From Synechococcus sp. RS9916 (GTDB lineage Bacteria > Cyanobacteriota > Cyanobacteriia > PCC-6307 > Cyanobiaceae): a stretch of DNA of 64,000 nt. Both the position numbers and the translations under genes were made by a program. The stretch lies in NCBI RefSeq assembly GCF_000153825.1, contig NZ_DS022299.1, positions 1,638,869 to 1,702,868 on the forward strand. Reading direction: 5' to 3'. Below, one piece after another: positions 51,964 to 56,803 of the stretch (position 1 is its first letter; every line of letters begins with the position of its first letter). The notes beneath the pieces were generated by a model. The model saw only the letters and a list, made by a program, of their open reading frames with translations, had not been told where the DNA came from and made no database searches.

Positions 51964-52060
51964 CCCACGGCCCTTGTGCCAGCTCAAAAAAGGGCCAGTA
52001 ACGGTTGCTACACAACCAATCCTTAATTAAGCGGCCACCGAACCACCCCTTCAAAACGAT

Positions 52061-52088
52061 GCCCCCGACCGGAAAACCGGTCGGGGGC
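52061..52088 (-). terminator. Perfect 12-bp hairpin, terminator-like
   Basis: GCCCCCGACCGG and CCGGTCGGGGGC form a perfect 12-bp stem with a 4-nt loop; on the minus strand ATCGTTTTG follows. It lies about 55 bases after the 17-codon frame and upstream of the second porin, so it could end a short transcript or act as an attenuator. Confidence 0.6.
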
Positions 52089-52143
52089 TCTCGCCGGGTC
52101 CGCTCTGGCGCGGAACCGATTGATCAGTCAGAGGAAAGAGCCG

Positions 52144-52197
52144 TCAGCCGGCGTTCTCCGCGATCAGCAGACCCTGCATCAAAGAACTGGAACTCAT
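52144..52197 (-). CDS. 17-codon mini-ORF with strong Shine-Dalgarno
   Basis: ATG 52197 opens a frame of 17 residues with a run of four Ser after Met, then a short hydrophobic part and AENAG before TGA. A near-perfect AGGAGGTG lies 3-5 bases before ATG (52201-52208), better than for most genes here. A 12-bp hairpin follows. It may encode a small peptide or a leader peptide. I recognise no family. Only 37 bases separate it from the divergent GT39 gene. Confidence 0.4.
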   Translation of the reverse strand: MSSSSLMQGLLIAENAG

Positions 52198-52200
52198 GGA

Positions 52201-52212
52201 CACCTCCTCCCG
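52201..52212 (-). promoter_or_regulatory. Strong ribosome binding site of the mini-ORF
   Basis: CCGGGAGGAGGTG on the minus strand, core AGGAGG 5 bases before ATG. It decides the mini-ORF start. Confidence 0.55.
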
Positions 52213-52234
52213 GATGGATAGATGAACGCCGGCG

Positions 52235-53875
52235 ATGCATTCGAAGCCAAACGAACCGCGGACGGCCCAAGATGCCTTCACATCACTGCGATCAGGACTC
52301 TTGAACCCTAACGGACTTGCAAGGTCTGTGCTGCTGTGGTGTTTCACCCTGCTGGTGTGGCTGCCAGGCCTGGGCACCCTGCCTCTGCGCGATTGGGACG
52401 AAGGACGCGTTGCCAGCGTGGCCCGCTCCACCATGGCCCGCCTGGATCTCAGCCAAGCCAACCTGGACTGGCTGCTGGCCTGGAAATGGCACGAGGCCTA
52501 TCTCAACAAGCCTCCAGGTCTGCATTGGTTCATCGGGTCAAGCACCCGCCTGCTCGGCGAACAGGAGTGGGCCGTGCGCTTGCTGCCTTGCCTGATCGCC
52601 AGCCTGGCCATACCTCTTCTCTATGCGCTGCGCCGCCAACTCGGAGGCCCCCATGCGGAACGCAAGGCCCTACTGGCCAGCCTGATCCTGATGACCCTGC
52701 TTCCTATGGCGCGCCATGGGCGGCTGGCCATGCTCGACGGCAGCCTGGTGACCAGCATGCTGCTGCTCTGGACCGGTTGGCTCAGCAGTCGTACCCGCCC
52801 CTGGCATGGCCTGCTGGCCGGACTGGGCATCACAGGCGTGCTGATGCTCAAGCCGCCAGCGGTGCTGGGATTTCTGCTGATCACGGCAGCGATCAGCGCG
52901 ATCGACCGCCGCCAAAGCCATTGGCGCCGCTCAGCGATGGCCTGGGTCGTGGCTGGTAGCGCTCCTGGTCTCGCCTGGCATCTCTGGCACGTCTCGCAAC
53001 GGGGCAGCGATGCCCTGTTGATGTGGGGCGGCCAGGGGCTCAGCCGGGTAGCTGAGGTGGTGGGCGACAGCACCGGCGCCTGGGTGATGCCGCTCACCGA
53101 AGTGCTGGAAGGCGGATGGCCGTGGCTGCTGCTGCTGCCAGCCGGGGTGATCTGGGCCTGGCGCCAGCGCCACCACAGCGTGGGGCGTTGGGAACTGGGC
53201 CTGCTGCTGGGCAGCGCAGCCCTGGTGCTGCCGCTGCGCACCCAACTGCCCTGGTACAGCCATCTGCTCTGGCCCTCCATTACTCTGCTCTGCGCTGAAG
53301 GCTTGGAGCCCGTGCTCAGTGATGGGCGCCCCCGCTGGGTGGGGCGCATCTGGAGCCTGCTGGGAGCTCTGGTGCTTCTGGGAACAGTGGTGGTTTGGGG
53401 CGCCGAGGTGATGCAGCTCCCCGCCACCCCGTTGGCCCTGCCGACACTGGCCTTGCTCTGTGCCGGTTCGGGCCTGCTGGCCGGTGGCCTGCAAGTGCTG
53501 CAACCCACCAGGCAGCAGAGGCGCCGAGGGCTACTCACCCTGCTGGCGGGCTGGGGCCTGGCCTTGCTGGCGCTTTGGCACAGCCCGTTCTGGCTGTGGG
53601 AACTGAATGAAAGCTGGGATCCTCGACCGGTGGCTGCCGCCATCCGCCAGCTTCCCGATCAAGCGCCCGTGATCCTCAAAGGCCCCACCCGCCCTTCGTT
53701 GGGCTGGTACGCCGGACGGGAACTGCTGCCCAAGGATGCTCCGCGCCAAGGCGAGCACTGGGTGGTGAGCCGCAAGCCGCTGCAAGGCTGCCAAGCCGTC
53801 TCCCCAGCCAGCCCGACCCAAAGGACCCAGACCCCAAACAGTCACTGGCAGCTCTGGCATTGCCCGACGCCATGA
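52235..53875 (+). CDS. GT39/ArnT-like membrane glycosyltransferase
   Basis: A 546-residue GT-C protein with about 11-12 hydrophobic spans. The first periplasmic loop has the acidic LRDWDEGRVAS motif, the metal/catalytic DE of ArnT and PMT enzymes, followed by NKPPGLHWFIG, the second conserved loop. The donor would be a polyprenyl-phosphate sugar. The first 25 residues are polar and could be upstream of a later start. Its stop overlaps the next gene in an ATGA. Confidence 0.85.
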   Translation: MHSKPNEPRTAQDAFTSLRSGLLNPNGLARSVLLWCFTLLVWLPGLGTLPLRDWDEGRVASVARSTMARLDLSQANLDWLLAWKWHEAYLNKPPGLHWFIGSSTRLLGEQEWAVRLLPCLIASLAIPLLYALRRQLGGPHAERKALLASLILMTLLPMARHGRLAMLDGSLVTSMLLLWTGWLSSRTRPWHGLLAGLGITGVLMLKPPAVLGFLLITAAISAIDRRQSHWRRSAMAWVVAGSAPGLAWHLWHVSQRGSDALLMWGGQGLSRVAEVVGDSTGAWVMPLTEVLEGGWPWLLLLPAGVIWAWRQRHHSVGRWELGLLLGSAALVLPLRTQLPWYSHLLWPSITLLCAEGLEPVLSDGRPRWVGRIWSLLGALVLLGTVVVWGAEVMQLPATPLALPTLALLCAGSGLLAGGLQVLQPTRQQRRRGLLTLLAGWGLALLALWHSPFWLWELNESWDPRPVAAAIRQLPDQAPVILKGPTRPSLGWYAGRELLPKDAPRQGEHWVVSRKPLQGCQAVSPASPTQRTQTPNSHWQLWHCPTP

Positions 53876-55314
53876 ACACGTTCCTGACAACGCCTACTCT
53901 CGCTCCACCCCGACGCCTTTGGGCCCTGAGCCTGCTGCTGGGCCTGGTGGCCTGGGGCGGCAGTGCAGCGCGCCACCATCTACTGCAAAGCAACGCCTAC
54001 GACCTGGGCCTCTTTGACCAATGGGCCTGGCTGCTGAGCCAAGGCCTGCCGCCGATCTCTTCGATGGAACAGGTGCACTGGCTGGCCGACCACGGCGCCT
54101 GGGGCTTTGCCGTTGCAGGTGGCTTCTATGCGCTCACCCCATCCGTGCAATGGCTGCTGGCCACCCAGGCCCTGGCCTTAAGCCTCACGGCAGTCCCGAT
54201 CTGGATGTTGGCCGCCCAGGCGCAGTTGCCCCGACGGCTGTGCTGGTTGGCCTGCCTGTTGTGGTGGCTGCAGCCGGTGGTGTTCAACAGCACCCTGTTT
54301 GATTTCCACCCGGAGGTGTGGGTGATGCCGGCCCTCGCCCTCAGCCTCTGGGCCCAACGGGCCAGGCGATTCCGGCTCTGGTTTGCCCTCTTGCTGCTGT
54401 TGCTGAGCTGCCGCGATGGGCTGGTGCTGATCACCGCCGGCATTGCCCTTGAACTGGCCTGGCGGCGCCGCTGGCGCTGGAGCACTGCAGCGGCTCTGCT
54501 GTCAGGCGGCTGGCTGCTGATGCTCAGCCGCTGGCTTTACCCCTGGCTGCGGGATGGCGAAGGCCCGAAAGCGGCAGGGCGCATGTTCAGCCATCTCAGC
54601 GGCGGGCCCATCAGCGCGCTTGCTGGCCTGGATTGGCCGGGAGGGCTCAGCTATCTGCTGCTGCTGGCGTTGCCCTGTGGCGTGCTGTGGCGCCGCCGCT
54701 CCCTGCCGGTGCTGCTGATCGGCCTGCCGCTGGTGCTGGTGAACCTGCTTTCAGCCGCCTCCAGTTACCGCACCCTGGTGCACCACTACAGCCTGCCCTT
54801 GGCGGTGGTGGCCGTGCTCGCCGCGATCGATGGTCTGGCCGCTGACGGGCAACAGGGCCTTGCTGTTGGCCGGCGAAAAAAAGCCCTGGTCGTGGGCTGG
54901 GCGGTGCTCTGCTGGCTGGCCCTGGCCAAACCGTGGTTTTTCACCGGGCCCTACCTGGAACGCATCAGCCTGCGCAGTGAAGCGGCCGCTGCCACCGCCG
55001 CCATCCCCTCCGATGCCGGTGTGCTCACCACCAGTTATCTGGTGCCTCACCTGAGCGCGCGGCGCCAGATCGCCTTCCCGAAGAAAAGCTTTGATGGCCC
55101 GCTGGAGGCAGACGGCTGGACGGCTCTGCTACTTCACCCAAGCGACCCCGGCTGGGGCTCATCCAGAAAGGTGCAACAGCAATTGCTCAACCGAGCGCAT
55201 CGCAACGACTGGGACTGCCGGCGTTGGCCGTCAGGCCTGGAGTTGTGCCTTGCACCCGGCGCAGCACCACCGCCCCCCCTTGGCAGTGAATCAGCTGGTA
55301 GTCACCGCGGCTGA
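53872..55314 (+). CDS. DUF2079 family membrane protein (GT-C-like), copy A
   Basis: 480 residues with about ten hydrophobic spans. The opening NAYDLGLFDQWAWLLSQGLP after the first helix, the DHGAWGF segment and FNSTLFDFHPEVW are DUF2079 features. It probably transfers a sugar from a lipid donor, by analogy with GT-C enzymes, but no reaction is known. ATG 53872 lies in the ATGA of the upstream stop. The 3' end overlaps copy B by 128 bases. Confidence 0.82.
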   Translation: MNTFLTTPTLAPPRRLWALSLLLGLVAWGGSAARHHLLQSNAYDLGLFDQWAWLLSQGLPPISSMEQVHWLADHGAWGFAVAGGFYALTPSVQWLLATQALALSLTAVPIWMLAAQAQLPRRLCWLACLLWWLQPVVFNSTLFDFHPEVWVMPALALSLWAQRARRFRLWFALLLLLLSCRDGLVLITAGIALELAWRRRWRWSTAAALLSGGWLLMLSRWLYPWLRDGEGPKAAGRMFSHLSGGPISALAGLDWPGGLSYLLLLALPCGVLWRRRSLPVLLIGLPLVLVNLLSAASSYRTLVHHYSLPLAVVAVLAAIDGLAADGQQGLAVGRRKKALVVGWAVLCWLALAKPWFFTGPYLERISLRSEAAAATAAIPSDAGVLTTSYLVPHLSARRQIAFPKKSFDGPLEADGWTALLLHPSDPGWGSSRKVQQQLLNRAHRNDWDCRRWPSGLELCLAPGAAPPPPLGSESAGSHRG

Positions 55315-56803
55315 TCAACTGGCTGATGCGATCGCGGATCGATTCCTGTTGCTTGCGCTCCCGCTTGAACACCGGCGCCATGGAGGTGTAGTAGCCGGGG
55401 AAAGCCACCACGTAGTCGACGGCCTGTTCCACCCCCTCGCGATCACGAAACTGCCAATGCTTGGGGAAGCGAATCACCTGCTCGCGCTCCGCCAGCAAAG
55501 GCAGCAGAGGCGTATCTGCCGAGACGCTGGCGGATGAAGGCACCTGAGCCACCGCCAACCGGGCCGCTTGCCGCCGGGCCAGCATCTCCTGGGGCGACAC
55601 ATGGACCCAGGGGGAAAAACTGTCAGGAATCAGGGCCGACAGGCTGCGATGGGGATTGCCCGCCAGGGTGAGCACCAAGCCAAGGGCCAGCGCTCCCGTC
55701 CAGAGCGACCGCAGCCGGCGCCGTTCCCAGACCTGGGGGTGCGCTTCCCACCACAACACGGTTCCCATGTAGAGACCGGGAACGAGAGCGAGCACATAGC
55801 GCAGGGTGACCGCCAAGGCCGTGCGCCCCTGCGACACCAGGGCAATCAACAACGGCACGGCCACCAGCAGAGCGGCATCCGCCGACACCAGCGGCACAAA
55901 CAGCAGCGGCAGGCTGAGGGCCAGCACAAAACCGAGGGTGGCACCTGGTGGTGAAACCAAGGCCTGCAGCACCGCCAGGGGCTGAGACACCATCGTGAGC
56001 ACCACCGATACGGTGCCGCCGGAAGGGTCATCGACCAGATGGCCGAATTTCTCGCTCAGGAAGCGATCGGCAAGAGACGAATCCACCGCCGGCTGAATCC
56101 AGCTGGTCACCAGCAGCACCCAACCAAACGACGCAAGCATCAACGCCAAGCCCCACCAGCGCACCTGCGGGCGACGCACCAGGGCCCAGAGGCCCAGGGA
56201 AAACAGCACCAGACCACTATCTTCCCGCACCAACAGCAGCAGCGCGGAGCAGAGCAACACCTGCCACAACCGCCGCTCCAGCAGTCCCTCCACCACCCAG
56301 AAGCCCAACAGGGGGAGCCAGATCAGATCATGAAAGTTCTCCAGTGCGGGCCCGATCACGGCACCACTGAGGAAGTAGGCGAGCGTGATTCGGAACGCCA
56401 GAGGATGGGGCAGACGGCGGGCTGCCATGCGCCACAGCACCAAGCCCGCAGCGGTCAGCACTGACACCTGCACCAAGGGCAACGCCCAGCGCCCCAGCAG
56501 CGCCACCAAGGGAGCGATCACCAGCGTGAGGGCATTGGCGTGCTGACCGAGATGGAGGTAGTCGACCCAGGGGAGAGCACCCCCAATCGCCACCGCCCCC
56601 GACAACACCGAGGACAGGCTGCTTTCAAATGGACGCCCCTGAGCTGTGGACCACAACTCCTGCAGGAACAGGGCCTGGTCATAGGTGGCGCTGAGACTCT
56701 CCAACCGCCAAACCTGGATCAGCAGCGTGACCAGCCAGAAGCCCGCAGCCAGCCAGCCAATGGAAGGGGGCCAGACCTCAGCCCTTGACGCAGATGCAGG
56801 CAT
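55187..56803 (-). CDS. DUF2079 family membrane protein (GT-C-like), copy B
   Basis: 538 residues with about 11 spans. YDQALFLQELWSTAQGRPFESS and HLGQHANALTLV are the equivalents of the copy A motifs, and ENFHDLIWLPLLGFW that of FDFHPEVW. It is a divergent paralogue of copy A facing it tail to tail; the 128-base overlap covers both C-termini. Its start is ATG 56803, 230 bases from the psbD end. Function inferred only from fold. Confidence 0.82.
   Translation of the reverse strand: MPASASRAEVWPPSIGWLAAGFWLVTLLIQVWRLESLSATYDQALFLQELWSTAQGRPFESSLSSVLSGAVAIGGALPWVDYLHLGQHANALTLVIAPLVALLGRWALPLVQVSVLTAAGLVLWRMAARRLPHPLAFRITLAYFLSGAVIGPALENFHDLIWLPLLGFWVVEGLLERRLWQVLLCSALLLLVREDSGLVLFSLGLWALVRRPQVRWWGLALMLASFGWVLLVTSWIQPAVDSSLADRFLSEKFGHLVDDPSGGTVSVVLTMVSQPLAVLQALVSPPGATLGFVLALSLPLLFVPLVSADAALLVAVPLLIALVSQGRTALAVTLRYVLALVPGLYMGTVLWWEAHPQVWERRRLRSLWTGALALGLVLTLAGNPHRSLSALIPDSFSPWVHVSPQEMLARRQAARLAVAQVPSSASVSADTPLLPLLAEREQVIRFPKHWQFRDREGVEQAVDYVVAFPGYYTSMAPVFKRERKQQESIRDRISQLISRGDYQLIHCQGGAVVLRRVQGTTPGLTANAGSPSRCDALG

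Follow-up and report, generated by a model that had tools for sequence, protein, structure and literature searches.

A conserved structured RNA carrying a 17-codon open reading frame in Synechococcus sp. RS9916 and its picocyanobacterial relatives: a candidate free-standing, translated RNA

INTRODUCTION

SgrS/SgrT, RNAIII/hld, and SR1/SR1P are dual-function (coding) bacterial small RNAs (sRNAs), and TnaC and the trp and erm leaders are leader-peptide attenuators. Yfr103 is a structured noncoding RNA of Synechococcus CC9605 and Prochlorococcus MIT9313 that is 290 to 328 nt long and has seven paralogues in CC9605 (PMC5069720). Yfr6, an RNA of ∼240 nt that could encode a 33-amino-acid peptide, has been detected in Prochlorococcus MED4 and SS120 alone; WH 8102 and MIT 9313 gave no signal (PMC1242208).

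The locus described here lies on the minus strand of a 64,000-nucleotide stretch of Synechococcus sp. RS9916 DNA (the window). Like the dual-function sRNAs, it appears to specify a free-standing, intrinsically terminated RNA with a Shine-Dalgarno (SD) sequence and a short open reading frame (ORF); a conserved −10 element and terminator that recur in varying contexts point to a promoter and terminator of its own. Unlike those sRNAs, its ORF has only 17 codons, the main helix draws one arm from the second half of that ORF, and drift affects half of the peptide. With leader-peptide attenuators it shares a short, apparently translated ORF with a strong SD, a variable N-terminal half, a conserved ORF end, mutually exclusive helices, and a terminator, but no downstream gene is conserved, its alternative helices are not in competition with the terminator, and it appears to be free-standing. 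By analogy, the RNA would come closest in its working to coding sRNAs and leader-peptide switches, but it lacks the cis target that defines an attenuator.

Yfr103, compared by description, is likewise a structured RNA from the same group of organisms, but the RNA described here has a predicted length of 246 nt and is nearly always single copy; length and copy number do not fit, and identity with Yfr103 is improbable. Yfr6 resembles our RNA in size and in its possible short peptide and was set aside, also by description, because its distribution does not fit: the RNA described here is widespread in Synechococcus and Cyanobium and carries a 17-codon ORF.

No Rfam 15 family, including the glutamine riboswitch and Downstream-peptide, matched the element at gathering score; the region gave only subthreshold chance matches, and in eight homologous loci no match at an E value of 0.1 fell on the element. 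A known RNA family was rejected on this basis. A phage origin was also rejected, since 50,697 phage records contained no match and an exact core pattern found none in IMG/VR. The papers searched contained neither the peptide nor the core sequence; the sRNA lists of WH7803 and MIT9313 lay outside this comparison, and an earlier detection of the RNA that passed over its ORF is possible.

RESULTS

Layout of the locus and parts of the predicted RNA

The initial annotation had described a 17-codon frame (52144-52197) behind a near-perfect ribosome binding site, followed by a perfect 12-bp hairpin (52061-52088) and, ∼160 bases farther on in the same direction, a porin leader. All of these coordinates were correct. 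The 16S tail within the window ends in GGATCACCTCCTAAC, and AGGAGGTG therefore pairs with it at 8/8 anti-SD bases. The SD is followed by the spacer TCC and then by the ATG at 52197; the TGA ends at 52144. The hairpin, GCCCCCGACCGG-TTTT-CCGGTCGGGGGC (52088-52061), has 12 perfect pairs and a loop of 4 and is followed by ATCGTTTT. Of the terminator-like sites in the region, it is the best. The porin start, ATGAAACTC, is at ∼51898, 163 bases past the hairpin by measurement. The pattern AGGAGGTG-N3-RTG occurs once in the 64 kb versus 0.13 times expected from shuffles, and a 181-nt stretch folds with a z score of −3.2. The decisive point is that the whole unit is conserved in relatives, by which comparison the layout is judged to be far beyond chance. 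The parts were thus correctly placed, but the feature is larger than had been claimed, since the conserved unit reaches upstream to ∼52310. The predicted RNA and its parts are as follows.

52305..52310, minus strand: putative −10 element TAGGGT (TANNNT); T, A, and T invariant in 26 aligned homologues
52053..52298, minus strand: predicted transcript, 246 nt; both ends placed by the limits of conservation
52223..52294, minus strand: 5′ hairpin with a long stem and variable loop; several compensated pairs in 26 and in 134 sequences
52201..52210, minus strand: SD GGAGGAGGTG, open; present in nearly all homologues and complementary to the 16S tail of the window
52144..52197, minus strand: ORF MSSSSLMQGLLIAENAG, 17 codons, stop TGA; start, stop, and length kept across homologues
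52166..52174, minus strand: 5′ arm of helix P2, GGGTCTGCT, from the end of codon 8 through codon 11; almost every sequence keeps it paired
52096..52104, minus strand: 3′ arm of P2, AGCGGACCC, in the 3′ untranslated region (UTR), from alignment folds
52140..52152, minus strand: small hairpin GCCG...CGGC around the stop codon, alternative to inner P2
52096..52117, minus strand: alternative hairpin GGTTCCGC-GCCAGA-GCGGACCC, mutually exclusive with P2
52055..52095, minus strand: terminator hairpin with an outer extension, GGCGA/TCGTT, around the stem at 52088-52061; covariation in stem and extension

Transcription is predicted to start at the conserved G52298, which lies 7 nt downstream of the −10 element, and to end after the terminator. 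TANNNT is still a conserved upstream block among 134 sequences; no −35 element was found, and the TANNNT site has no sigma-70 consensus match. The terminator tail motif GGGCATCGTTTT does not occur elsewhere in the RS9916 genome, on which ground a generic terminator repeat was rejected. The U-tract side of the terminator is itself conserved (ATCGTT, 52059-52055) and is predicted to pair with GGCGA, which is unusual for a plain intrinsic terminator.

Distribution of the unit

A blastn search with a 191-nt query was positive for 31 of 60 relatives; the copies were 82 to 94% identical, except for one weak second copy. The conserved block runs from TANNNT, ∼100 bases upstream of the ATG, to the hairpin and AUCGUUUU; the flanks diverge beyond it. 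A covariance model (R1) built on the 157-nt core matched 203 of 400 family genomes, 146 of the 251 good genomes, and 39 of 59 genera, and both R1 and blastn almost always gave one copy per genome. Across 194 genomes of the class, the covariance model made good matches only in family members, with one outsider at an E value of 0.0098. Holders include Synechococcus WH7803, RCC307, and WH5701, Cyanobium, Vulcanococcus, Aphanothece, and Prochlorococcus MIT 0701; the WH7803 homologue of the core lies at 2062104-2062260 on the minus strand. The RNA is absent from many small Prochlorococcus-sized genomes.

One genome (G023, locus L238) carries a second, divergent copy at 1501-1656, ∼5 kb from the first. 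It is without the SD and an intact ORF, keeps the 3′ half and the terminator, and looks decayed. One copy from a SAG (L231) has a 1-base deletion within the ORF.

Conserved structure and predicted bistability

RNAalifold, applied to 26 sequences, returned three elements: the 5′ hairpin, P2 (joining the ORF with the 3′ UTR), and the terminator. All 16 compensated pairs in these sequences lie within the 5′ hairpin and the terminator. The same three elements hold in 134 sequences, where the GGCGA/TCGTT extension of the terminator also has some compensated pairs. The 5′ hairpin keeps G-U pairs on the minus strand. P2 joins ORF codons 8 to 14 to the 3′ UTR, with further pairs extending into codon 17; its pairs are kept and seldom compensated, and its support is therefore mostly conservation. 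The small hairpin around the stop codon is kept in most homologues, with differing loop lengths and some compensatory forms (read by eye).

The alternative hairpin has 7 of its 8 pairs kept in 123 to 133 of 133 sequences, a conservation that is not independent because the conserved bases are shared with P2. Two of its pairs show both-sided changes, which come from only 3 sequences and may represent one event. When the ORF was masked as if ribosome bound, the alternative hairpin formed in 114 of 133 folds; in unmasked folds, P2 formed in 81 of 133, and the alternative hairpin was already winning in 42 of 133. Computation thus predicts bistability between P2 and this hairpin. Among the predicted alternative helices, none invades the terminator stem; P2 and the alternative hairpin both end before the terminator extension.

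Translation signals are conserved more than the peptide

The start codon and the ribosome binding site are both kept across family homologues. Among 127 distinct homologues, the start is ATG in 69 and GTG in 56 (125/127), the stop is TGA in 120, TAA in 4, and TAG in 3, and the ORF is 17 codons long in 126. On a tree of 132 sequences, the start codon changed ∼10 times, always between A and G and never at the second or third base. Codons 2 to 8 accumulated 274 substitutions in these sequences and no ORF indels; the split of 58 synonymous to 216 nonsynonymous changes is close to the neutral expectation of 63 to 211. Codons 9 to 17 show only 76 changes in 27 bases, with 24 synonymous and 52 nonsynonymous against an expected 24 and 52. 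The translation signals are thus conserved without an excess of synonymous change.

These results bear on the possibility of a free-standing small-protein transcript, which the initial annotation had also raised. Comparison supports that proposal through the family-wide conservation of SD, start, frame length, and stop. The annotation had looked to conservation of peptide, ribosome binding site, and hairpin; the latter two are kept, but the peptide sequence shows little protein-level selection. A plain micro-protein mRNA, with the 17-residue peptide as its product and a structure that only stabilizes or tunes the message, would explain the conserved translation signals as well as the nearly invariant residues S4, S/C5, Q/K8, G9, E14, and A16 and the pattern M..S[S/C]..[Q/K]GLLIAENAG, of which GL..AE[NK]A is kept by most of the divergent homologues. 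However, residues 2 to 8 drift neutrally, codons 9 to 17 lack synonymous excess, and most of the conserved residues fall within the paired arm of the RNA; the importance of the C-terminal half of the peptide cannot be shown because its changes fall at the neutral split. By alignment, the RNA structure that overlaps the ORF is at least as conserved as the peptide. We consider the micro-protein explanation rather unlikely. The peptide is also not the hydrophobic, membrane-spanning product of a type I toxin mRNA, since its 17 residues have a polar N-terminal half and only GLLIA is hydrophobic.

Neutral drift of codons 2 to 8, strong covarying structure, and nucleotide conservation would suit a structural or regulatory noncoding RNA with an incidental ORF, and many abundant sRNAs of unknown function are present in marine picocyanobacteria (PMC5069720). 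An incidental ORF, however, would not be expected to hold its start to ATG or GTG through ∼10 changes, to end in three different stops at a fixed length without indels, or to keep a near-perfect SD at fixed spacing, and this explanation appears improbable. Since residues 2 to 8 drift neutrally and codons 9 to 17 are conserved as RNA, the natural reading of the alignments is that the fact of translation and its place are kept more strictly than the peptide: selection would act on translation and on where it ends, and RNA pairing would be what mainly holds the latter half of the ORF.

Genomic context and the neighboring porin

Neighbor clusters were defined in 71 loci from simple ORF calls with Pfam assignments on representatives, for which reason the counts are approximate. 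In 29 of the 71 loci, the nearest recognized gene downstream encodes a convergent DUF2079 membrane protein; in 21 it is that of a co-directional SLH-OprB porin, with various other genes elsewhere. Upstream, a divergent PMT_2 glycosyltransferase is the neighbor in 36/71 loci. A glycosyltransferase-like membrane neighbor is present in 56/71, and so the association with GT-C-like neighbors may be more than chance synteny. In the window, a cluster of GT-C-like membrane proteins (PMT_2, DUF2079, DUF2079) lies beside the RNA at 52235-56803.

Because the downstream gene varies across loci, the porin appears to be a frequent neighbor and not a fixed target. A leader-peptide attenuator acting in cis on the porin or another downstream gene, as the initial annotation envisaged, would match the order of SD, ORF, hairpin, and co-directional porin in the window, the 21 loci with a porin downstream, and the existence of alternative structures, but it is very improbable: no co-directional gene is kept across the 71 loci, most of which have another downstream gene or one on the opposite strand, no predicted antiterminator helix overlaps the terminator stem, and the putative −10 element and a terminator hairpin kept in nearly every homologue belong to the RNA itself. 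The porin-leader proposal was thus rejected on context, the convergent neighbors largely refuting it.

The window holds two tandem SLH-OprB porin genes on the minus strand (51943-49964 and 49798-47981) whose leaders and N-terminal regions are nearly identical. The first leader, CTGTGTGAGGAAACCATG, contains GTGTGAGGA, which is similar to the site motif of the sRNA Yfr1 and is a candidate Yfr1 site. Yfr1 targets porins in Prochlorococcus MED4 (PMC6778093).

DISCUSSION

The explanation that we favor, and hold to be somewhat probable, is a free-standing translated structured RNA of ∼246 nt whose fold is coupled to ribosome passage. Its basis is comparative: the unit, its translation signals, and its frame are conserved, the structure covaries, and no downstream gene is fixed. 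From this comparison we infer the promoter, the RNA ends, transcription and translation in cells, and translation-coupled refolding.

In the proposed mechanism, a promoter and an intrinsic terminator of its own would produce a structured RNA of ∼246 nt carrying the 17-codon ORF. Ribosomes would load at the open SD and traverse the ORF. Because codons 8 to 14 form one arm of P2, a ribosome that traverses this stretch, or that terminates at the stop codon, whose place is fixed, would open P2, and the 3′ half could then refold into the local hairpin. As for the output, our guess is that the RNA acts in trans or sets its own lifetime, depending on its translation state.

More tentatively, the RNA could be a translation sensor, that is, an attenuator-like switch free of a downstream gene, in which the ribosome flips the 3′ half and thereby controls trans activity or stability. 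Such a sensor, possible though doubtful, would use an ORF of fixed length and largely indifferent sequence and would be found in a large part of the picocyanobacterial family.

Marine Synechococcus and Prochlorococcus, which rank among the major primary producers, possess few protein regulators. If the proposal is true, the family would possess a single-copy core element, missed by standard gene calling, in which an ORF is translated and a structure competes with that translation. Conserved translation together with neutral drift of half of the peptide would then provide a clean case of an ORF that is maintained for the sake of the ribosome and not of the protein and that does not sit in the usual leader position.
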